Below are positions 4,661-30,488 of a stretch of 36,273 nt of DNA, piece after piece. Positions within the stretch are counted from its first letter, which is position 1. Each line of letters opens with the position of its first letter. Origin of the DNA: a bacterium. Lineage in GTDB: Bacteria > ARS69. The DNA lies in NCBI GenBank assembly GCA_025774805.1, contig JALGZR010000027.1:1-36273 (forward strand). Reading direction: 5' to 3'. The notes below the pieces were generated by a model. That model did not search any database. It saw only the letters and a list, made by a program, of their open reading frames with translations, and was not told the DNA's origin. The translations under genes were made by a program, and so were the position numbers.

Positions 4661-7600
4661 GGCCCGCCCTCCGTCGTGGCGACTCCGGGAACGAGCTGCG
4701 GCTCCGTCGGTCGGGACCCGGGCCGAGCCGCGAACGACTCGCCCGCGACGCGATCGAACAGGACCGGAACGACCACGAGCGTGAGCACGGTTGCGGAGAC
4801 GAGACCCCCGATGAGCGCGGCGGCCATCGGAGCGCGCAGCGCAGCACCCCGCCCGAAGAAGAGGGGAAGGAGCCCGAGCGCCGTCGTGAGAGTCGTCATC
4901 AGGATGGGCCGGTAGCGCCGCCGTCCCGCGACGCTCACGGCCTCGCTCCTCGGGACTCCCGACCGGCGGAGCCGGCTCAGGAGGTCGACCTTGAGGATGG
5001 CATCGTTCACGACGATGCCGACGAGCACCACGATGCCGATCCCCGACAGCGCGTTGACCGTGCCCCCGGTGAGCAGCAGCGCGGCGGCCACGCCCACGAG
5101 CGCGAGCGGAACGGCCGCGAAGATCACGAACGGAAGACGCACTGACTCGAACTGGACCGCGAGGATGAGGAGAACGAGACCGGCGGAGAGCGCGAAGGCG
5201 CGGGCGATGCCCTCCAGGATCTCCCGCATCTCCCGCCACGCGCCGCCGAACGTGATCGCGTAGCCGGGGGGGAGACCGATCTCACAGACGGCCGACTCGA
5301 GCGCCTCCCGCGCCCGCCCCGCCTCCCGCAGCGGGCCGTCCCAGCGGATCGACGCGACCCGGGCCTGATCGACGCGGCGGACACTCGCGGCGGCGAGCTC
5401 GGTCGTCGTTTCGAAGAGCTCCCGCACGGGAAAGGACCTTCCGCGCGCGACGATCACGGCGGAGGAAGGGTCCGTCTCCCCCGGCATCCGGAGGACGACG
5501 GGGATCTCCTCGTCGAAGCGCCGGATGCGGGCGGCCTCGTGTCCCGACGCGAGCGCCTCCACTCCGGGGAGAAGCTCGGGCTCGGTCAAGCCGTAGCGCC
5601 AGAGCGCCTCCGCGCGGGGCACGAGGCGCAGGCGGGGCTGCATCTCCGCCGCCTCGAGGCGGAACGGGTGACCCTCGTCACCGAGCCGATCGGCGGCGAT
5701 CCCGGTGACGGCGCGAGCGATCCGCTCCGCCCGCCTCGGGTCCGGTCCGGTGACGGCGCCGGTGAGCGTCGCCGCTCCGCCGCGCACGACGGCGGCGAGC
5801 TCCGGGGTGTCGTCCCCCATTCCCAGGCTCCATCCCGGGCGCGTGCCGAACTCGCCGCGAAGATCGGAGAGCAGGAGCTCGCGTCGCGCTCTCCCCCGCT
5901 CGGAGAGCACGAGACGCAGCACGGCGCGGTGGACGCTTCGCGCCTCGTCTCCCGGGTCGATCGTGCCCGCGTTCCCGACCGTCGCGAACACGGAGGCCAC
6001 CTCGTCCCGGGACGCGAGCCACGCCTCGAGATCGCGCACGGCGCGATCGGTGGCGAGCACGTCGCTTCCCGGCGGAAGCCGGAGAATCAGCTCGAGGTGA
6101 TCGGTGGCGACGGGAGGCAGGAGCTCGCGGGGTCGGAGGGCCAGCCCGGCTCCGCTCACGACCAGCGTGACGGCGACGATTCCGAGCAGACGCCCGGGTC
6201 GCGACAGCCCCCACTCCAGCACCGCGTGGTAGAGGCCGAAGAGCGGGCGGCGCTCGAGAGAGGTCCGGCGGGAGGGCCACTTCGCGGAGAGGAGGGGAAG
6301 AAGCGTCAGCGCCACCACCAGGCTCACCAGAAGCGAGACCGACACGGCGATCGCCTGGTCGCGGAAGAGGTCGCCGATGACTCCGGGAACGCTCACCAGC
6401 GGAACGAAGACGGCGCACGTCGTCAGCGTGGACGCGAGAACGGGCAGCGAGATCTCCTTCGCCCCGAGAGTGGCGGCCTCGGCCGGGGAGCGGCCCGCGC
6501 TCCGGTGCCGGTGGATGTTCTCGAGACAGACGATTCCGTTGTCGACGAGCATCCCGATTCCGAGGGCGAGACCCCCCAGCGACATCAGGTTGAGCGAGAC
6601 TCCGAGCCCGTCGAACAGGCAGAAGGTCGCGATCACCGAGACGGGCAACGCGAGGAGGAGGTGCAGGGGAGCGCGGGGGTCGCCCAGGAACAGGAGGAGG
6701 ACTCCGAACGCGAGGAGCCCTCCCCACCCCATCGCCTGGGACACGCCGGCGACCGACTGCCGGACGAACGGAGAGGAGTCGGCCACGACGGCCAAAGCGA
6801 GTCCGTCGAACTCCTCCGTCAGGCGGTCGATCTCCTTCCGCACCGCCTCGGTCAGATCCAGGAGGTTCTCCTCCGCCTCCCGGTAGAGCAGCACGCCCAC
6901 GGCGGGACGCCCGTCGAGTCGGCTCCAGCCCTCCGGTTCCGCGACCCCGTCCACGACGCGGGCCAGGTCCCCGAGGCGCACCGATCGATCCGAGTCGGAC
7001 GGAAGGACGACGTCCCGCACGTCGTTCCCGTCGCGAAGGCGGGTCTCCACCTGGAGGGAGAAGCGGGTGCCGCGCCGCCGCAACACACCTCCCGGCGAGT
7101 CGACGTTCGCGTCGCGAACGGCGGCCGCGATCTCGGCCACCCCGAGGCCGGTCGCCTCGAGACGTTCGGGATCGGGCTCGATCCGGATCTCGCGGGAGAC
7201 TCCGCCGATCACGAGCGCTCGAGCCACCCCGTCGATCTGCTCGAGCCGGGGCGAGAGCACCCTTTCCGCCCAGTTGGTGGCGGCGACGAGATCGTCCTGC
7301 GCGAGCGCGAGGACCATGGCCGGAGCATCCTCCCCCGTCTCTCCGAGGACGACGGGTCGCTCGACGCCTTCGGGAAACGTCCAGCGAATGGCGTCGAGCC
7401 GCTCCCGCACGGCGAGCGCCACGAGCTCGGGATCGCGGCCCGGTTGCAGTCCGATGCGGAACGACGCCCCGCCGGTCCGCACCCGGGTCTCGACGCCGCG
7501 CACGCCGGGGGCCGCGAGCAGCGTCTCCTCGGCCGGACGCGCCACCGCCTCCTCGATCTCCGGCACCGCGGCCCCTCGCCACGCGATCCAGACGCCGAGG

Positions 7601-7731
7601 TGGTCGCTCTTCACCTCGGGCAGCAGCGTGACCTCGAGACGCCGCAGGGAGATCGTCCCGAGCAGGACCGTCGCGAGCAGGATCATGGACGTGGCGATCG
7701 GCCGTCGCACCGCCAGGGAGGAGAGGTGCAC
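4657..7731 (-). CDS. RND efflux permease, first of a tandem pair
   Basis: The 1024-residue protein is a full-length RND permease. It starts at GTG 7729-7731, two bases after the fusion-protein stop, giving the classical N-terminus (HLSSLAVRRPIATSMILLA) in which the first membrane helix begins near residue 10. Signature elements include LLPEVKSDHLGVWIAWRGA after TM1, GIGMLVDNGIVCLENIH in TM4, and a C-terminal YRPILMTTLTTALGLLPLFF helix. TM4 again has Asp-Asn rather than Asp-Asp. It is clearly different in sequence from the permease that follows, so the pair looks like two subunits of one mixed pump (MdtB/MdtC style) rather than a recent duplication. Mixed assembly is inference from the single shared fusion protein. 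No outer-membrane channel gene is present in the window. Confidence 0.93.
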   Translation of the reverse strand: MHLSSLAVRRPIATSMILLATVLLGTISLRRLEVTLLPEVKSDHLGVWIAWRGAAVPEIEEAVARPAEETLLAAPGVRGVETRVRTGGASFRIGLQPGRDPELVALAVRERLDAIRWTFPEGVERPVVLGETGEDAPAMVLALAQDDLVAATNWAERVLSPRLEQIDGVARALVIGGVSREIRIEPDPERLEATGLGVAEIAAAVRDANVDSPGGVLRRRGTRFSLQVETRLRDGNDVRDVVLPSDSDRSVRLGDLARVVDGVAEPEGWSRLDGRPAVGVLLYREAEENLLDLTEAVRKEIDRLTEEFDGLALAVVADSSPFVRQSVAGVSQAMGWGGLLAFGVLLLFLGDPRAPLHLLLALPVSVIATFCLFDGLGVSLNLMSLGGLALGIGMLVDNGIVCLENIHRHRSAGRSPAEAATLGAKEISLPVLASTLTTCAVFVPLVSVPGVIGDLFRDQAIAVSVSLLVSLVVALTLLPLLSAKWPSRRTSLERRPLFGLYHAVLEWGLSRPGRLLGIVAVTLVVSGAGLALRPRELLPPVATDHLELILRLPPGSDVLATDRAVRDLEAWLASRDEVASVFATVGNAGTIDPGDEARSVHRAVLRLVLSERGRARRELLLSDLRGEFGTRPGWSLGMGDDTPELAAVVRGGAATLTGAVTGPDPRRAERIARAVTGIAADRLGDEGHPFRLEAAEMQPRLRLVPRAEALWRYGLTEPELLPGVEALASGHEAARIRRFDEEIPVVLRMPGETDPSSAVIVARGRSFPVRELFETTTELAAASVRRVDQARVASIRWDGPLREAGRAREALESAVCEIGLPPGYAITFGGAWREMREILEGIARAFALSAGLVLLILAVQFESVRLPFVIFAAVPLALVGVAAALLLTGGTVNALSGIGIVVLVGIVVNDAILKVDLLSRLRRSGVPRSEAVSVAGRRRYRPILMTTLTTALGLLPLFFGRGAALRAPMAAALIGGLVSATVLTLVVVPVLFDRVAGESFAARPGSRPTEPQLVPGVATTEGGP

Positions 7732-7733
7732 GT

Positions 7734-8957
7734 CTACCTCCGGACCGTGACGTCCACCGGGGCTCCGTGGGCGAGCGTGAGGTGGCCGTCCACGAGAACG
7801 GTGTCCCCGGCGGCGACCCCGGTGGTGATCTCGACGCTTTCCGCGGTCTCGAGTCCGGTCTCGACGTATTGCCACTCCGCGCGACCCCGGGACACGCGAA
7901 ACACCAGCAGACGGCGATCGCGCTCCAACACCGCCCCGCGGGGAAGCGCGATTCGATCGGGATGGGTCCTACCGGCGATCTCCACTTCCGCGTACATCCC
8001 CGGCTTGATCCGCCCGTCCCGGTTCGCGAGCCGCACGTAGGCCACGCCGGTCCCGCGCTCCGGATCGATCTCCGGACCGAGTGCGGCGACCGTTCCCTCG
8101 AAGAGCTCGCCGGGACGGGCGGGAAAGCGGACGCGGGCCGCGGCCCCGGTCTCGAGACGGCCGAAGTCCGTCTCGAGAACCTCGGCCGGGATCCGAATCG
8201 GATCGAGATCCACCAACCCCACGAGGGGCGTGTTCGCCGCGACCCGCTCTCCCGCCTCGGCGAGGACCCGCGCGACCTCCCCGTCGAAGGGCGCCCGCAG
8301 AACCGTCCCCTCCAGGTCGAGCTCGGCCCTCGCGAGGAGCGCCCGCGCCTCGGTGAGGCCGGTCCGGTGTGCGACGAGCTCGCGACGATCATCCGTCGGC
8401 GTCGGATCGGACAGGAGACGGAGGTGGTAGTCGGACTCCGCGTTCGCCACGCGCGCGCCGGCCTCCTGGAGAGCGATCTCGAACGGACGCCGCTCGAGCT
8501 CGACGAGCGGTTCCCCCGCTCTCACCCGATCTCCCTCCGTCACGTGGACGGCGGTAATCCGCTCCCCCACCGACGGGGAGAGATCGGCGCGGCGCCTCGC
8601 CTCGGCCCGACCGGTGGCCCGCACGGTGAGGACGAACGGAGCGCGCTCCGCCACGACCGCTCCCACCGGGAGGGGGGCCATCCGCCGGGCCTCCGTTCGG
8701 GTCTCCGCCGCGTCCGGCATCGACTCGGACCCGGTGGTCGGTGCCGCGCTCGCCACTCTCCCGGTGTCCTGCGCGGGAGAGCCATCCTCGCCGAGGCCCC
8801 CGCCGTCTCGTGAGGCTCCCGACCGGGAGCTCAGGGCGATGCCGAGCGCGGCGATCGTCACGATCCCGAGGGCCGCGATCGGAACGAGGATTCGGGACCG
8901 TCTTCCGGTCCGGGGGCCCTTGCCGCCCGCTTCGGTCTCTCTTTCGTGTCGAGTCAT
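7734..8957 (-). CDS. Efflux RND transporter periplasmic adaptor (membrane fusion protein)
   Basis: The 407-residue protein is HlyD/AcrA-like. A cytoplasmic basic tail is followed by an inner-membrane anchor (about residues 19-39, RILVPIAALGIVTIAALGIA). The lipoyl half-motif is VTEGDRVRAGEPLVELERRP and its partner half is GTVLRAPFDGEVARVLAEAG, with a short alpha-hairpin between them. A beta-barrel domain (RFPARPGELFEGTVAALGPE) and a membrane-proximal domain (GMYAEVEIAGRTHPDRIALP) follow. ATG 8955-8957 was chosen because it gives the basic-tail-then-anchor pattern; an in-frame ATG 31 codons upstream adds a Pro/Arg-rich tail of no known type. It is the first gene of the operon and connects the two RND permeases to an outer-membrane channel encoded elsewhere. 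Confidence 0.92.
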   Translation of the reverse strand: MTRHERETEAGGKGPRTGRRSRILVPIAALGIVTIAALGIALSSRSGASRDGGGLGEDGSPAQDTGRVASAAPTTGSESMPDAAETRTEARRMAPLPVGAVVAERAPFVLTVRATGRAEARRRADLSPSVGERITAVHVTEGDRVRAGEPLVELERRPFEIALQEAGARVANAESDYHLRLLSDPTPTDDRRELVAHRTGLTEARALLARAELDLEGTVLRAPFDGEVARVLAEAGERVAANTPLVGLVDLDPIRIPAEVLETDFGRLETGAAARVRFPARPGELFEGTVAALGPEIDPERGTGVAYVRLANRDGRIKPGMYAEVEIAGRTHPDRIALPRGAVLERDRRLLVFRVSRGRAEWQYVETGLETAESVEITTGVAAGDTVLVDGHLTLAHGAPVDVTVRR

Positions 8958-9261
8958 CGCTCGCCCCGGCTCGCATTCTGTCTCGGTTCGTCGTCCGGAC
9001 GGGGGCGCGGCCCGACCCGGCGCGTCCCCTGCGATCCCGCTGAAGATCAATTTCCGTGCCGGAACTCAGCGGCGGGAATCGGCCTCCAGCCCGGTGCAGG
9101 GGACGCACCGGGGACGAGCTCCTCAAACGGGGCGACCCATATCGGGCGTCCGCATCGGTTCCCGGAGTGGGCGGCGGAGGCCCGGGGCCTCACGACCCCC
9201 CCGAGGTGGGAACGGTCGCGGCGAGGGCCGATCGCGTCGAGTGGGGGTGGGAAGGGCCGGT
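8958..9261. other. Intergenic region upstream of the efflux operon
   Basis: This stretch of about 300 bases holds no convincing gene. It should contain the promoter of the minus-strand efflux operon. A small inverted repeat (TTCCG-TGC-CGGAA, 9052-9064) lies about 100 bases upstream of the adaptor start and could be an operator, but it is too short to claim. No clear -35/-10 pair was seen. Confidence 0.4.
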
Positions 9262-9343
9262 TAGCCTGCGTATCTCACCAGCCTCTGCTGCGTCCGCGGC
9301 AAAGCCGCGGCCTCGCGACGAGCCTGGTGAGAGATGCCGGCTA
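9262..9343. repeat. Palindromic dispersed element, copy 1
   Basis: Outer arms 9262-9281 and 9324-9343 pair at 17 of 20 positions (TAGCCTGCGTATCTCACCAG against its partner). An inner perfect hairpin, CCGCGGC-AAA-GCCGCGG, lies at 9294-9310, and the shared block CTCGTCGCGAGG is present on the minus strand. The right foot CTAG contains the TAG stop of the minus-strand fusion gene (9341-9343). The same arm sequences recur at 15547, 21121 and, with a changed hairpin block, at 26244. It could act as a transcription terminator or be a non-autonomous REP/MITE-like element. No transposase is nearby. Confidence 0.8.
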
Positions 9344-11329
9344 GCGAGATCCGTCGCGCCCGGATCGGGAGCGCGTCGCCTCACTCAGCTTTCGGAGATT
9401 CTCGCGGGCCATCTCGTGATCCGGATCGAGGCGGACCGCTTCGGTGAACTGCTCCAGCGCCTCGTCGACGCGGCCGTTGCGAAGGAGGGCGACGCCCAGA
9501 CTGTTGCGCGTGCCCGCGTCCTGAGGCTGGGCCCGCACGACGATCTCGAGGTGGGACACCGCTCTCCCGAAGTCCCCGCTCGAGAGACGAAGCGTGCCGA
9601 GCACGCGGTGAGCCCGAGGGTGATCCGGGACGAACGTGAGGGCCCGCTCCGCGTTGCGGAGGGCTCTCGCGCTCCGTCCGGCGCGCTGCGCCGTCGCCGC
9701 CCGCCCCGCGAGCACGTTCGCCGCGATCTCGCGGGATGCCCCCTTCACGACGGGGGCGAGGAGGTTCTCCACCGGGGCCCAGTCGTCGGTCAGCGATCGC
9801 CCCCCGCGGCTCCGCTCCAGGTCGGCCAGATCCTCGGATCTCAGACGGGACAACCCGTACCGCCGATCGTACCCGGCGATCAGCCCGTCGAGCTCGGCGG
9901 GCCGCTTCGTGGCCACCAGGATGAACGTATTGCGCACGTCGGGCTGGCGGGGCGCCGGCACCCCTTCGTTGAAGACGACCACGTGCGGGAAGACCGTCTT
10001 CAGGGTGGCGATCATCGCACCGAGGAGGCGTCCCTCGCGGAACACGTCGATCAGGTTCATCATGTACGCCCCGTCCTCGGCGAGGAGGGCCTCGATCCTC
10101 CTCAGGAACTCGAGCGTCGTGAGCTGATACGGCACCGAGTAGTCGTCGAAGACGTCGAGGTAGATGAAATCGTAGGGCGTGAGCCCTTCTCCCCTCCGTT
10201 GCGCCTCCCCGAGCCGCTCCACGAAAGCCCGCCCGTCCGCGTGACGAATCAGGAGCCCGTGATCGGCGGGAAGGCCGAAGGCCGCGATCGCCGCCCTCGT
10301 GACCGCGGGATCGATCTCCACGACCTCGGTGCGACCCCTCGGCCATTCGGACTGCAGAAAGCGGGGGAACACGTACCCGCCGCCGCCGATGGTCAGGGTG
10401 TTCAGGGAGTCGCGACCTCCCGCGAGCCGCCGCGTGACCCCGGCGTAGATCCTCTCGTATCCGTACTGGAGGTCGCTCGGTCTCTCCATCACGATCGAGC
10501 TGTGGAGCAGCTTGTCGAGATGCAGGTTTCGCTGATCGGGCGACTCCGAGACGCGGTACACGCGAATGTGCGAGTACTGGCTCTCGTCCTGGTACAGGAC
10601 GCTCTCGTCACGGACCTCCCGCAACGCGATGCGCGCGCCGAGATCGCGCGCCCACGACCAGGGTCCCGTGCCCAAGAGACCGACGACGACGAAGAGAGGA
10701 ACCGCGATCGCGGCGATCCGCCCGGCTCCGGCGAAGAGGATCCCCATCACGACCAGCACGGCGCCGACGCTCCAGATCACCACCGCCGTCCCGAACGCGG
10801 CGATGAGCCAGAAACCGGTGAGAAACGTCCCGACCAGGCTTCCGGCGACTCCCCAGGCGTAGACGCCGCCGATCGTGCGACCGGTCTCGCGCCCCTGGTC
10901 GAGGGCCATCTTGGCCGCGACGGGACTGATCATCCCCAGGATCACCGATGGAACCAAAAAGACGATCGCCACGTGGGTCCCGACGCGAACGGACCAGGGA
11001 AGGGACCAGAGGAAGACCCACTGACCGATGACGTGGTTGAGCACGGTCACCGCTACGCAAGACGCCGCGGCCGCGAGAAACAGGATCGCGAGCGTGGGGG
11101 CGGCGCGCCGTCGGTCGGCGATTCGGCCGCCCGCGTAGTTCCCCGCCGCGATTCCGGCCAACACCACGCCGATCACCGAGGTCCACGTGTAGAGGGACGA
11201 ACCGAGATGTCGGGAGATCACGCGGCCGGCGACGAGCTCGATCACCATGATGCAGAAGCTGGAGACGAAAACGGTCGCCTGGGGAAGCCAGTCGAGCGAC
11301 GTCGGACCGGGTCGAGCGGCGGAGGGCAA
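9341..11329 (-). CDS. Fused membrane transporter-like / spermidine synthase-like protein with C-terminal TPRs
   Basis: The N-terminal half is hydrophobic with about eight membrane segments (for example VFVSSFCIMVIELVAGRVIS and GVYAWGVAGSLVGTFLTGFW). The middle is a SAM-dependent-methyltransferase/spermidine-synthase fold (about residues 300-510) with a glycine motif TIGGGGYVFPRFL, the acidic strand-2 end EVVEIDPAV, and FIYLDVFDDYSVPYQLTTLE. About three TPR repeats follow near residues 545-650 (for example GRVDEALEQFTEAVRLDPDH). This is the layout of bacterial fused MFS/spermidine-synthase proteins, most of which have no proven polyamine activity. I prefer a TTG start at 11327-11329, preceded by GAGGTG at suitable spacing. 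An in-frame ATG at 11488 would add 53 Pro/Gly-rich residues and run into the divergent promoter. The stop TAG lies in the palindromic element. Confidence 0.85.
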   Translation of the reverse strand: MPSAARPGPTSLDWLPQATVFVSSFCIMVIELVAGRVISRHLGSSLYTWTSVIGVVLAGIAAGNYAGGRIADRRRAAPTLAILFLAAAASCVAVTVLNHVIGQWVFLWSLPWSVRVGTHVAIVFLVPSVILGMISPVAAKMALDQGRETGRTIGGVYAWGVAGSLVGTFLTGFWLIAAFGTAVVIWSVGAVLVVMGILFAGAGRIAAIAVPLFVVVGLLGTGPWSWARDLGARIALREVRDESVLYQDESQYSHIRVYRVSESPDQRNLHLDKLLHSSIVMERPSDLQYGYERIYAGVTRRLAGGRDSLNTLTIGGGGYVFPRFLQSEWPRGRTEVVEIDPAVTRAAIAAFGLPADHGLLIRHADGRAFVERLGEAQRRGEGLTPYDFIYLDVFDDYSVPYQLTTLEFLRRIEALLAEDGAYMMNLIDVFREGRLLGAMIATLKTVFPHVVVFNEGVPAPRQPDVRNTFILVATKRPAELDGLIAGYDRRYGLSRLRSEDLADLERSRGGRSLTDDWAPVENLLAPVVKGASREIAANVLAGRAATAQRAGRSARALRNAERALTFVPDHPRAHRVLGTLRLSSGDFGRAVSHLEIVVRAQPQDAGTRNSLGVALLRNGRVDEALEQFTEAVRLDPDHEMARENLRKLSEATRSRSGRDGSR

Positions 11330-11523
11330 ATCACACCTCGGGGAGATCGGGACACCGAAGCGGGGCCATCCTAGCTCGCTTCCTCCCGAGGATCCACCGC
11401 GGCCTGGCCCGCCCGCGGCTCCGTACCCGGGGGCACGGTCGGCCTCCCCCCGCTTCGATTGACACACGCGGACCGGACTCCCTACCATCGATGGTCCGTA
11501 TTCCTGTCTCCCGGAGAAGACCC

Positions 11524-24975: not shown

Positions 24976-26229
24976 TCACCGCTCTCTCTCCTCCGGCCGG
25001 GGCCGCCCCTCCAACGATCCCGTGTCCTCGACGCTCCGGGAGAGAAGCGATCGGGCCCGGCCGAGAGCCTTGCGACCGAAGCGCCCGACCACCTCGTCCT
25101 CCGCCGCATGCAGGTGTCGGAGCCGTTGCGGGTCCGGGTCCCGCTCGTGCCCCGGATCGCCGTGGAGCCCGAGCTCGAGCTGCGGGGAGGTCGTGAATCC
25201 GGAGATCCCGACCCCGAGCAACCGGACTCCCTCGCCCCGATGGTGGACACTCCGGAAGAGAACGAGGGACTCCCGGAAGATCTCCCCCGCATCCCGGGTC
25301 GGGGTGGGGAGCGTTCGGCTGCGGGTGAGGGTGGTGAAGTCGGGAAGGCGGAGCTTGAGCGTCACCGTTCGGCCGCCCAGACCGTTCGCGCGCGCCCGCT
25401 GGGCCACCTTCTCGGCCAACGAGAGCAGCACTCCCTCGAGCACCTCCTCGTCGGTCTGATCGACGGCGAACGTCGTCTCGTGGGAGAGGCTCTTCGGAGG
25501 CGTGTCGGGGATGACCGGGCGATCGTCCTCTCCGCGCGCGAGCGCCCGCAGGTGAAGGGCGCCCGAGCCCACGACCCGGGTGAGGCTCTCCTCGCTCGCG
25601 CGCGCGAGGGCGGCGATCGTCCGGATTCCCGCACCCCTCAGGGCCTCGCGGGTGGCGGGACCCACGCCCCAGAGGCGCTCGAGGGGTAGCGACTGCACGA
25701 ACGCGACGACCGACTCGGGAGGGATGACGGTCAGTCCGTCGGGCTTTTCGTGATCCGAGGCGAGCTTGGCGACGAACTTCGAGTTCGAGATTCCGACCGA
25801 GGCGGTGAGGCCGAGCTCGCGGCGAATCCGTTCCCGGACGGCGGTGCCGATCTCGACCGGCGTCCCGAGAAGACGATCGGCGCCGGACAGGTCGAGGAAG
25901 GCCTCGTCGAGAGAGAGAGGCTCCACGAGAGGCGAGAACTCCCGCAGGATCGCCATGAGTCGATGGGAGACCTCCTGATATCTCCCCATCCGTCCGGGAA
26001 GAACGATCAGGTCCGGGCACCTCTGGAGCGCGGTGGCGGTGGGCATCGCCGACCGAACGCCGTACCGGCGCGCCTCGTACGACGCCGACGACACGACCCC
26101 TCTCCGCTCCGCGCTTCCTCCCACCGCCAACGGCTTTCCCGCGAGAGACGGGTCGTCGCGCACCTCGACGGAGGCGTAGAAGGAGTCCATGTCGACGTGA
26201 CCGATCACCCGGTCGAAGGCAGCCGGCAT
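24976..26229 (-). CDS. dinB: DNA polymerase IV (Y-family translesion polymerase)
   Basis: The 417-residue protein has the complete Y-family core. HVDMDSFYASVE contains the first metal Asp13 and the steric-gate Phe17. The palm motif SLDEAFLDLSG has Asp108 and Glu109, and SVGISNSKFVAKLASDHEKP is the conserved thumb-side sequence. A helix-hairpin-helix (ERLWGVGPATREALRGAGIR) and a little-finger domain (HETTFAVDQTDEEVLEGVLL) follow. It copies past DNA lesions in the cytoplasm. A basic, Arg-rich C-terminal tail of about 50 residues (QRLRHLHAAEDEVVGRFGRK onward) follows the little finger, and a beta-clamp motif was not recognised in it. ATG 26227-26229 is the only sensible start. No LexA-box could be confidently identified upstream, where a palindromic element sits 15 bases away. 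Confidence 0.96.
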   Translation of the reverse strand: MPAAFDRVIGHVDMDSFYASVEVRDDPSLAGKPLAVGGSAERRGVVSSASYEARRYGVRSAMPTATALQRCPDLIVLPGRMGRYQEVSHRLMAILREFSPLVEPLSLDEAFLDLSGADRLLGTPVEIGTAVRERIRRELGLTASVGISNSKFVAKLASDHEKPDGLTVIPPESVVAFVQSLPLERLWGVGPATREALRGAGIRTIAALARASEESLTRVVGSGALHLRALARGEDDRPVIPDTPPKSLSHETTFAVDQTDEEVLEGVLLSLAEKVAQRARANGLGGRTVTLKLRLPDFTTLTRSRTLPTPTRDAGEIFRESLVLFRSVHHRGEGVRLLGVGISGFTTSPQLELGLHGDPGHERDPDPQRLRHLHAAEDEVVGRFGRKALGRARSLLSRSVEDTGSLEGRPRPEERER

Positions 26230-26243
26230 ATCTCGACAGGCCC

Positions 26244-26347
26244 CTAGCCCGGACTATTCATGAAGGATCTGCTGCGATCGCGGAACCACGCCACCGGACG
26301 GGCGTCTCCGCAATCTCGCGACGATCTTCATGAAGAGTCCGGGCTAG
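26244..26347. repeat. Palindromic dispersed element, variant copy 6
   Basis: The element is bounded by CTAGCCCGGACT at both feet. Arms 26244-26267 and 26323-26347 pair, with TTCATGAAG replacing the TCTCACCAG/CTGGTGAGA block of the other copies. The change is present in both arms, so base pairing is preserved. Inner blocks CTGCTGCG and CGTCGCGAGATTGCGGAG match copies 1 and 4. The right foot supplies the TAG stop (26344-26346) of the selenoprotein candidate. Confidence 0.8.
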
Positions 26348-27855
26348 TGCTCGATCATGAGCCAGTAGATTTCCGGATCGAAGTCGGGGCTGTTCTCCGC
26401 ATCGTGACATCGAGTGCACCCCCGCATTCCCAGGGATCGACCGTACGTCCCGTCGCGCGCGTGCAGGCTTCCGCGGTCGTGGCAGACCTCGCACTGCACG
26501 TTGATCAGGGCGGTCGGATCGGACGTCCCGGAGACGTATCCCCCGGGAACGTCGTGCCCGGTGACGTGGCAGCGGAAGCACTCGGGCAGCGCGTCCTTCC
26601 CCTCCCGCACGAGGGTCTCGAACGCGGATGCATGAGGCGTCTCGGTCCACAACTCGTACTCGGCATGGTGACACGAGGCGCACTCGAGAGCTCCCACGAA
26701 GTAGTGGCCGTCGGTCGCCGCCCGCTCCTCCACGCGGCGGTCCGCGCGGGATCTCATGAGCTCGTTGAGGTTCCGGGTGAACTCCTCCACGAGCCGGACC
26801 ACCTCGGGGTCGGCGGCCCAACGGCGGTTCAGAACCAGCTCGTCCCCCGTCATCCGGTCGACGCGGCTCCCTTCGAGCCGCAGGCGCGCGAGCCCGAGGG
26901 ACTGACCCCGGCCGTCCGCCGTCACGTACAGGGTCCCGCTCTCGTCCGGGTGCACGAGTCCGCGACCCGGTCGGTGGTTTCCCACGATGACGACGTCGAC
27001 GAGACCCTCGAAGCGCTTTCCGACCACCTCCGCCCGACCCAGAGGCATGCCGGCCAGAAGAACCACGACGTCGGACCGTTCCCTCACCTCGGGGAGCACG
27101 CGCGCGAGCGTCTCCTCGGCCGGGTCGATCGTGTATCCGGCGTCGGAGAGTCGCCGGGCTCTCGGGGCCCCGAGCTCGAGAACGGCCGTGATCCCCACCC
27201 TCGCCCCCGCCCTCTCCACGATTCGCCAGGCAGGCGCGAGGGGCCGGCCGGATTCGGCGTCGCGGACGTTCGCGGAGACGAAGGGCGCCGAGCCCTCGCT
27301 CACGAGGGTCTTGATCATCTGTCGACCGAACAGGAGATCGTTCATCCCGAGACCGATGGCGTCGTACCCGAACCGGTTCATCATCTCGAGGAGGAAGAAG
27401 CCGCGCGGCTCACCCGTCTCGTTCTGGGACCCGGTGAAGTCCCCCCCGTCGACCAGCACGAGCTCCGCGCCGGAAGCTCTCAGGGTGTCGATGGCACTGG
27501 CCCGACGGGCCAGACCGCCGCGGCGGTTCCGGCTTCACCCGCAGGGGTCGATCTCACCGAGGCCTTCAATCGACGAGGCGATGATGAGATCGGGAACGAC
27601 ACCGCCGGCGAAGGGATCGTCGGGGGGCGGTCTTCCCTCGAGCTCGCGGACGAACGCTTGGTACTCGGCCTCCCGGGCGTCTCGTGCCGAGTCGGCGGCC
27701 TCCGCTTCCGCGAGGAGGACGCCGGCACGGGCTGCGCCGTCCTCCGCCCCCGCGGAGCCGACCCCGGCCGAGGTCAACAGGAGAGCGAAGGCCGAAGCGG
27801 CGGACCCCCGAAGGGCGGTGCCGCGAGGACGACATCGGATGCGACGAGGAGTCAA
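26344..27855 (-). CDS. Secreted 5'-nucleotidase-like tetraheme cytochrome; candidate selenoprotein with in-frame TGA
   Basis: Read through one TGA (27535-27537, codon 107), this is a 503-residue protein with a Sec signal peptide (about residues 12-37, cleavage after SAGA). A UshA/5'-nucleotidase-like domain spans about 88-345. Its usual metal residues are degenerate: SSIEGLG replaces the TNDxHG type, and GLGMNDLLFG replaces GNHEFD. Four CxxCH heme sites lie at 392-396, 426-430, 455-459 and 480-484, in a cytochrome-c554-like arrangement. The context of the TGA is DPCG-(TGA)-SRNRRGGLARRA; relatives I recall read PCGC there, so TGA replaces a Cys codon. The TTG start at 27853-27855 follows AAGGA. 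No other stop occurs in the frame. A SECIS-like hairpin follows the TGA. A recent nonsense mutation or a base-call error are the alternatives. The TAG stop lies in repeat copy 6. Confidence 0.75.
27497..27537 (-). promoter_or_regulatory. Candidate bacterial SECIS element immediately downstream of the in-frame UGA
   Basis: On the minus strand the UGA (27537-27535) is followed after 21 bases by a perfect stem, CTGGCCC-GTC-GGGCCAG (27513-27497). The loop begins with G, 28 bases from the UGA. Known bacterial SECIS hairpins lie within the coding region, within about 40 bases of the UGA, and have a G early in the apical loop; this fits. A second palindrome, CCGCCGCGGCGG (27515-27526), sits between UGA and stem and could extend or compete with the fold. 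High GC raises the chance of accidental hairpins. Confidence 0.55.
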
Positions 27856-28030
27856 TGCGTCCTTCCCACGGGTCCGCTCCCGCGCCACGGGAGAGAGTGG
27901 GGTGAAACCCCCGGCTGGAAAAGGAGTTCCGCTCACGCGGCATTCTACCAGATGCGTCCGGGAGCGGCGCCTCCCGCAGCCGATCGAGGGCTCTTCTTTA
28001 CCGCGACTTGACCGGTTCCGTCCCCCGCGC

Positions 28031-28059: not shown

Positions 28060-28124
28060 GCGCTCGCTCCGCGGTCCGGGATCACTCGGGCGGCGGCGCA
28101 GACGACGAAAGGATCGTCGATCGT

Positions 28125-28307
28125 TCATTTCCGGTTCGGGTGACGGGAAGCCGGTGCGAATCCGGCGCGGCCCCGCCACTGTGAGCGGTGACGACTTCCG
28201 CACAGGCCACGGACCATCCGGAAGGCGCGGAAGTCGGAGGACCCGCCAGCCAGGAGACCGGCCCGAGCCAGCACGTTGACCGCCTTCGAGGGTGAGGCAG
28301 GTGACGT
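28125..28307 (+). promoter_or_regulatory. Cobalamin (B12) riboswitch
   Basis: The conserved core blocks occur in order: GACGGGAAGCCGGTGCGAAT with the matching CCGGC, CCCCGCCACTGTGAGCGG, a variable arm (GACTTCCGC pairing with GCGGAAGTC), CCGGAAGGCG, and the B12 box AGCCAGGAGACC at 28248-28259. A following hairpin (28273-28307, ACGT/ACC/GCCT arms) may be the regulatory P13-type stem-loop. It lies upstream of a BtuB-like receptor gene in the same direction. Binding of adenosyl- or methylcobalamin by such elements lowers expression of B12 uptake genes. The outer boundaries are approximate. Confidence 0.92.
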
Positions 28308-28535
28308 CGATCGGACCCGACCGGTTCGGCCTCGTTCGACGGCCCCCGGTCCCGGATGAAAGAGCATCCGCATCGCCGTTCCTCCTCCCCGTCGAGTCTC
28401 GGAGGGACGCGCGATGCTTCCTCGGCTTCGATGGGGATCGTGGGCTCGAACGCCCCGCTTCCCGCGGCAAGGCCGGCTTCTTCTTCTCGACCTGACGCCT
28501 CTTCCTTCGGCGGCCGCCCGCCCGCTTCGTGTGCC

Positions 28536-30488
28536 GTGAGCCGACGACCGCCGCCGCTTCCCGCGGTCCTCGCGCTCGTCGCCGTCCTCCCCGCCCGGGG
28601 AGAGGAGGTCGGCCCGTCCGCGACGGCTTTCGATTCCCTGCCCGCCCACCCCCTTCCTCCGATCGAGGTGCGGGCCGACGCCTTTCCCGATCCGTTGGGC
28701 CCGTTCCCCCTGACGACGTCGTTGCTCCGCCGGTCGGCGCTGGAACGAAGACCGGGCGGAGATCTGCGCGAGGCGCTGTTGCCGGTCGCGGGGCTGAGGG
28801 TCACGTCGCTCGGAGCGTCCGACGCGGGATCCGCGGTCTCGATCCGCGGGGCCTCGACGGACCAGGTCCTGGTGCTGGTGGACGGAAGCCGCCGGAACCC
28901 GGCCCAGGGGGGCGGCGTCGATCTCGCTAGCCTCTCCCTCGACACCGTCGAGAGCGTCGAGGTCTTCCGCGGAGGAGCTTCCGCGCTCTGGGGAAGCGCG
29001 GCGATCGGCGGAGCGATTCACGTGCGGACCCGGAGGCCCCGCCCCGGCAGTGCACGGGTGCGCGTGGCCGCGGGATCGTTCGGGGAACGGCGGGTCGAGG
29101 GATCGACGAGCTTCGATCTCGGTCGCGGGTGGGGGCTGCGGACGAGCGGACGCGCGTTCCGGACCGACGGGGACTACGCGTTCCTCGACGACCACCGGCG
29201 TACGGAGACGGTCGTGACGAACGGGGACATTCTTCGCCTGGGCGGTGAGGTGCGGGCGGAAGGACCGGCCGGAGGGTCGTCCCGAGCGCGGATCGATGCC
29301 TCCGCGGTCACCACCGAACGGGGGGTTCCCGGCAGCGAGGAGTTCCCCACGCCCCGCGCCCGGCTGACGGATGATCGGGGAAGTCTCGGCATCCGGTGGG
29401 AGCGTCGTGGGACGGCGCCGTGGCAGCCGGCGGCGGAGCTGACCTGGCTCGGAATGGAGCGGCGGTACACCGATCCCGAGGCGCCCTTCCTCGCGATCGA
29501 CGACTCCCACCGAAACGTCCGCGTCGAATCGGGTCTGTCGGTCGATCGGATGGGTCACCGGTCGACGGTGCGGCTCGCGACCGGACTCTCGATCGATCGT
29601 CTCGAGAGCACGACGGACGGGAGCCGGCGACGGGACTCGGGCAATCTCCGGGCGCAGCTCTCGCGGGACCTCTCGTGGGGAGAAGGTCGCACCGTACGGG
29701 GAATGCTCGCGGCCCGCCTCGACGGAGTGGAGGGTTTCGCGCCGCATCTCAGCCCGCGGATCGGTCTGCTCGCCCGGGTGTGGCCGGAGCGACTCCAGTT
29801 CCGCGCCTCCGCCGGTCTCTCGTTTCGCACGCCGAGCTTCGACGAGCTCTTCTGGCCCCCGCGCGCCTCCGCCGCGGGTAACCCCGATCTGCGCCCGGAG
29901 CGCGGACGGGACGTGGACATCGGCGTGTCCATCCGCGGCGGCCCCGGATCCGCGCGGATCCAGGCCGACGTGTTTCTCCGCGAGGTCGACGATCTGATCC
30001 AGTGGGTCCCCGGGGCCTCCGGCGTGTGGCGGCCGCACAACATCGGCGCCGCCCGGATCGCCGGCGTCGAGATCGACGGGTCCGTCGAGGCGCCCGCGCC
30101 CGGAGAGCTCCGGATCCGTCTGGGCGGGTCCGCGACCGGACTCCACTCCGAGGATCGGTCGGGGGAACCGAACGTGGACGGCCGGCGACTGGTCTACCGC
30201 CCGACTTGGGCGGGGGCTCTGGGAATCACGCTCGCGCGGGGGGAAGGCCATGAGCTCGAGGCGAGCTGGCGGTTCGTGGACGACGTGTTCGTCACCCGGG
30301 CGAACACGAAGTCACTCGAGGGACACGTCTTCGGAGACATCCGGTACCGCCGTCGGATGGGTCTCGGGCTCCGCATCGACGCGTCAGTCACGAATGTGAC
30401 GGACGTCACGGCCCGCGACGTCCGCGACTTTCCTCTCCCGGGTCGGGCGTGGAAGCTCGGCATCACCTACGAAAGGAGTGCCTCATGA
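28536..30488 (+). CDS. btuB: TonB-dependent outer-membrane receptor, BtuB-like (cobalamin uptake)
   Basis: The protein of about 650 residues has a signal peptide (RRPPPLPAVLALVAVLPARG), a TonB-box-like IEVRA stretch, and a plug domain with VSIRGASTDQVLVLVDGSRR and SVEVFRGGASALWGSAAIGG. A 22-strand-type barrel follows, containing FRTPSFDELFWPPRASAAGN and NPDLRPERGRDVDIG, both typical of BtuB/FepA receptors. It ends in GRAWKLGITYERSAS, a few residues past the usual terminal aromatic strand. The cobalamin riboswitch upstream identifies the substrate class. GTG 28536 was chosen because it gives the signal peptide directly; its ribosome site is weak, and upstream in-frame ATGs (28356, 28431) would add unrelated residues. 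Its TGA overlaps the ATG of the following lipoprotein gene (ATGA). Confidence 0.88.
   Translation: MSRRPPPLPAVLALVAVLPARGEEVGPSATAFDSLPAHPLPPIEVRADAFPDPLGPFPLTTSLLRRSALERRPGGDLREALLPVAGLRVTSLGASDAGSAVSIRGASTDQVLVLVDGSRRNPAQGGGVDLASLSLDTVESVEVFRGGASALWGSAAIGGAIHVRTRRPRPGSARVRVAAGSFGERRVEGSTSFDLGRGWGLRTSGRAFRTDGDYAFLDDHRRTETVVTNGDILRLGGEVRAEGPAGGSSRARIDASAVTTERGVPGSEEFPTPRARLTDDRGSLGIRWERRGTAPWQPAAELTWLGMERRYTDPEAPFLAIDDSHRNVRVESGLSVDRMGHRSTVRLATGLSIDRLESTTDGSRRRDSGNLRAQLSRDLSWGEGRTVRGMLAARLDGVEGFAPHLSPRIGLLARVWPERLQFRASAGLSFRTPSFDELFWPPRASAAGNPDLRPERGRDVDIGVSIRGGPGSARIQADVFLREVDDLIQWVPGASGVWRPHNIGAARIAGVEIDGSVEAPAPGELRIRLGGSATGLHSEDRSGEPNVDGRRLVYRPTWAGALGITLARGEGHELEASWRFVDDVFVTRANTKSLEGHVFGDIRYRRRMGLGLRIDASVTNVTDVTARDVRDFPLPGRAWKLGITYERSAS

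Follow-up and report, generated by a model that had tools for sequence, protein, structure and literature searches.

A divergent UshA-like CxU (seleno)protein gene with a Cys-Gly-Sec motif and a tetrahaem tail

The window analyzed here, a stretch of bacterial DNA of 36,273 nucleotides, carries a gene for an UshA-like (seleno)protein on its minus strand (26344..27855). The gene starts with TTG at 27855, with AAGGA upstream of it, and ends with TAG (26346-26344); an alternative in-frame GTG start lies at 27888. Read with TGA as selenocysteine (Sec, U), the frame is open for 503 residues. Its sole TGA (27535..27537, minus strand) is codon 107, with 106 codons before it and 396 after it, and falls in the motif PCGU. 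A preliminary description of this DNA, made from its letters alone, gave the positions, the codon counts, and the single TGA correctly and omitted the strand. The plus-strand frame across 26344-27855 was considered as the gene and rejected as unrelated.

By eye, the N-terminus of the protein is signal peptide-like, and this tetrahaem CGU protein is probably exported. Two parts follow. First, a 5'-nucleotidase/SoxB-like domain that has lost most of its metal ligands (26857..27591, minus strand) covers positions 23-274 of the 519-position NCBIfam profile NF041198. Second, a C-terminal tetrahaem cytochrome c554-type region (26377..26832, minus strand) covers positions 357-517 of that profile and matches Pfam Cytochrome_C554 (1.7e-14). 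Translation of the minus-strand frame yields the four haem motifs CASCH (26668..26682), CFRCH (26566..26580), CEVCH (26479..26493), and CTRCH (26404..26418), each of which is invariant in 94 aligned members. Foldseek, run with an AlphaFold model of the protein (mean pLDDT 89), matches 5'-nucleotidases and SoxB. The four intact CxxCH motifs of the preliminary description are present in the translation, and its nucleotidase-like domain is recovered by both the NF041198 profile and the fold match.

Directly downstream of the selenoprotein gene lies a gene for a Y-family DNA polymerase with IMS domains (24976-26229, minus strand); by eye, two relatives (L020 and L021) have similar sequence past the stop. 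An inverted repeat (26244-26347), with 41-nt arms that are 76% complementary, adjoins the stop codon of the UshA-like gene. The terminal 16 bases of this repeat occur 37 times in the genome and 0 times in the control, and these ends often form inverted pairs approximately 160 bases apart. Given the 37 genome copies, often arranged as inverted pairs, the repeat resembles a small element of the dispersed kind. Also in the window, a cobalamin riboswitch (28121-28280, plus strand; Rfam RF00174, 104.8 bits) stands upstream of a TonB-dependent receptor gene (28356-30488). The genes adjoining more distant members of the family offer no obvious functional clue.

Comparison with homologues bears directly on the meaning of the TGA. 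Among 100 homologous frames, a few of which duplicate records already in the set, 61 carry TGA at this site and the other 39 a Cys codon; no other state occurs, and the domain harbors no further TGA. The window sequence PCGUSRNRRGGLARRA presents the PCG-U/C motif and then GGLARR, as in NF041198. All four relatives from the same family, at 43-50% identity, possess TGA at the identical codon, and a second gene copy in the source genome has TGA at this site too. Coding signal persists beyond the TGA: the relatives can be aligned at 44-52% identity for approximately 395 codons, over which codon positions 1 and 2 are conserved above position 3.

These data weigh on two rival accounts of the TGA. 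In a pseudogene, the TGA would be a nonsense mutation followed by a decaying 3' part. This would suit a lone TGA that breaks an otherwise open frame, and the assembly yielded no SelD; however, recurrence of the TGA at one codon in four relatives and in 61 frames, the lack of any other TGA, and haem motifs that are intact in the window clade (five genomes, each a different genus of one family) make decay very improbable. The second account, in which a sequencing or assembly error made TGA from a Cys codon, draws on the single base that separates TGA from TGC or TGT and on the draft state of the source genome. We consider it the less probable of the two: the second copy in the same genome also has the TGA, and four related genomes, each assembled independently, share it at this codon, which excludes chance or sequencing error. 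Finally, 15 of 21 checked ORFs in the window, some of which overlap, terminate in TGA. Thus, TGA is an ordinary stop for most other ORFs here, and a reassigned code is ruled out as the cause.

In a tree of 94 proteins that has some weak inner branches and some long ones, the Sec/Cys label requires three changes. To judge from the sequences, this pattern is consistent with a single gain of Sec and two reversions to Cys. Both reversions would fall within the same Eisenbacteria record (L115), where three consecutive UshA-like genes (5827-11335) code in turn for Cys, Sec, and Cys at this position.

As a rule, bacterial SECIS elements are hairpins, at 16-37 nt, whose small loop includes a G. The window contains a hairpin that fits (27497..27513, minus strand; CTGGCCC-GTC-GGGCCAG), with a 7-bp stem and a GTC loop that begins 28 nt past the TGA, the distance given in the preliminary description, and the structure is kept in Sec members and not in Cys members. 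Specifically, in one register, fixed after the folds had been seen and scored in members that are related to one another, at least six contiguous pairs form in 47 of 54 distinct Sec members versus 3 of 38 Cys members. Every one of the 54 Sec members opens the loop with G. Relative to shuffles that recode each gene synonymously while keeping its codon use, Sec members average 5.96 contiguous pairs (2.44 in the shuffles) and Cys members 1.84 (1.53 in the shuffles). For the window gene alone the result is marginal, as 5% of its own synonymous shuffles reach its pairing. Free-energy z-scores fail to distinguish the Sec from the Cys members when a wide 36-nt stretch is taken (p = 0.72) and distinguish them weakly for a tighter one (p = 0.019); pairing counted in the fixed register does so clearly. 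When the 53 nt that begin at the TGA of the window gene are folded alone, a competing structure beats the conserved hairpin; folding from offset 15, past the nucleotides that a ribosome would shield, restores it. Because the hairpin overlaps codons of the conserved GGLARRA, its conservation alone proves little.

A search for the Sec machinery, suggested in the preliminary description, recovered from the source genome SelB (383 bits; cut-off 242), SelA (536 bits), and a tRNA-Sec with anticodon TCA, the last by both Rfam (72 bits) and ARAGORN. No SelD turned up in the draft assembly, which has 284 contigs and is 96% complete. SelB is above cut-off in all five genomes (the source and four relatives), and SelD is present in all four same-family relatives. 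On the simplest reading, the missing SelD would reflect a gap in the 284-contig assembly. The SelD genes of the four relatives (L085-L088) each possess one in-frame TGA, so the SelD of these relatives is probably itself a selenoprotein.

Selenocysteine at UGA 107, within a Cys-Gly-Sec motif, is strongly supported by these sequence comparisons. The conserved TGA/Cys site, the hairpin, SelA, SelB, and tRNA-Sec all support the original proposal that the UGA is decoded in this way. Likewise, the Cys that the proposal placed at this column in relatives is encoded in 39 of the 100 frames, its question of whether other homologues carry the TGA is answered by the remaining 61 and by all four same-family relatives, and the truncation or decay in sister genomes that it named as contrary evidence was not seen, the TGA and the haem motifs being kept there. 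On this reading, SelB and tRNA-Sec(UCA) decode UGA 107 with the aid of the hairpin 28 nt downstream.

The family to which the gene belongs is already known, since UshA-like CxU selenoproteins have been listed in ocean samples (76 Sec and 92 Cys sequences; PMC2398784, 2008) and again in PMC9312934 (2022) and PMC13188914 (2026). The statement in the preliminary description that no selenoprotein of this family had been described was thus mistaken; besides these papers, NF041198 itself is named "UshA-like (seleno)protein" (UshA_like_PCGU). The profile matches all 94 aligned members. It scores the window protein at 249.8 bits, 25 below its cut-off of 275, and we therefore file the protein as a divergent relative and do not call it an NF041198 equivalog. 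The orthologues of the window gene in the other four genomes likewise have no match above this cut-off. The second CGU selenoprotein copy in the source genome (L078, contig C190 of G000) is above it, at 292.5 bits with neighbors in frame, as is a second copy in one relative. Searching the literature on multihaem cytochrome selenoproteins yielded nothing relevant, and a scan of viral contigs found no relatives. The window gene, then, is a divergent member of the known UshA-like CxU family, and we hold the selenoprotein reading and this placement with high confidence. What we add is modest: a divergent below-cut-off clade in which the metal ligands are mostly lost, and the Sec/Cys tree.

The nucleotidase-like domain has changed where a dimetal site would be expected. 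GNH[DE] is missing from its aligned position in 94 of 94 members, with G-x-x-[DE] in its place, and occurs elsewhere within the first 300 residues in two members. Of the 94 members, 6 retain the DxH His and 88 have lost it. Two later His positions are retained in about 60 of the 94 and in none of the window clade; the window protein has a His one residue past the second of them. CGU occupies part of the loop following strand 1, just ahead of the conserved GG-ARR, and its two C/U positions are invariant in the 94 aligned members (Sec written as C).

We propose that the product, probably exported, places Cys-Gly-Sec in a former nucleotidase active-site loop and joins it to a four-haem c554-type tail. 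Because most of the dimetal ligands are gone, the domain would no longer act as a phosphoesterase. Rather, the Cys-Sec pair could carry out thiol/selenenylsulfide redox chemistry on a periplasmic substrate and swap electrons with the haems of the tail. At the level of sequence, the invariant C/U positions and CxxCH motifs, the missing GNH[DE], and, in the window clade, the lost later His residues count for such a role. We rate this functional proposal, non-phosphoesterase domain and selenol-haem exchange included, at roughly even odds. Thus, of the periplasmic redox protein first suggested, the Sec motif in a probably exported tetrahaem protein stands, and the redox role is the less certain part. 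A rival on function only, which leaves the decoding untouched, is that the Sec protein has remained a phosphoesterase or a hydrolase of the thiosulfohydrolase kind, in which Sec would serve as an auxiliary nucleophile. Sequence profile and fold do match 5'-nucleotidases and SoxB, but a hydrolase seems unlikely given the absence of GNH[DE] from its position in every aligned member, the rarity of the DxH His, and the loss of the two later His residues from the window clade. Returning to the redox proposal, we tentatively suggest, as a less probable extension, that the window clade is a distinct subfamily: a scaffold with its metal site mostly lost and Cys-Gly-Sec beside a four-haem wire, perhaps a selenol-to-haem oxidoreductase of a biochemically uncharacterized type.

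These findings confirm selenocysteine use in a little-studied lineage, whose closest named records are MAGs labeled Gemmatimonadota. They describe one more member of a known selenoprotein family and not a discovery. Because the GNH[DE] ligands are missing throughout the compared members, they argue against the nucleotidase role implied by the UshA-like name, and they make a redox role testable. With the window clade under the NF041198 cut-off, automatic annotation pipelines could call its genes truncated.

Among known systems, NF041198 is alike in both profile parts, in PCG-U/C, in the four-haem tail, and in having Sec and Cys forms, whereas the window protein and its clade fall under the equivalog cut-off and show further loss of metal ligands. 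NCBIfam NF049981, UshA-like (seleno)protein family 2, belongs to the same superfamily; its match to the window protein is weak (30.8 bits; cut-off 140), and its listed motif is CxxU, in contrast to CxU here. The ExtKL multihaem (seleno)protein, NF040886, is likewise a listed selenoprotein with c-type haems, but it matches only 2 of the 94 members, weakly, and the window protein not at all. The SoxB thiosulfohydrolase (TIGR04486) aligns over the nucleotidase-like domain (48 bits; Foldseek rank 25), yet its cut-off of 550 is far above that score, and the window protein mostly lacks the dimetal ligands and has a haem tail and CGU fused to the domain. Finally, the UshA and CD73 5'-nucleotidases share the N-terminal domain fold with the window protein, which lacks GNH[DE] at its position and, where those enzymes have a C-terminal substrate-binding domain, possesses a tetrahaem tail instead.
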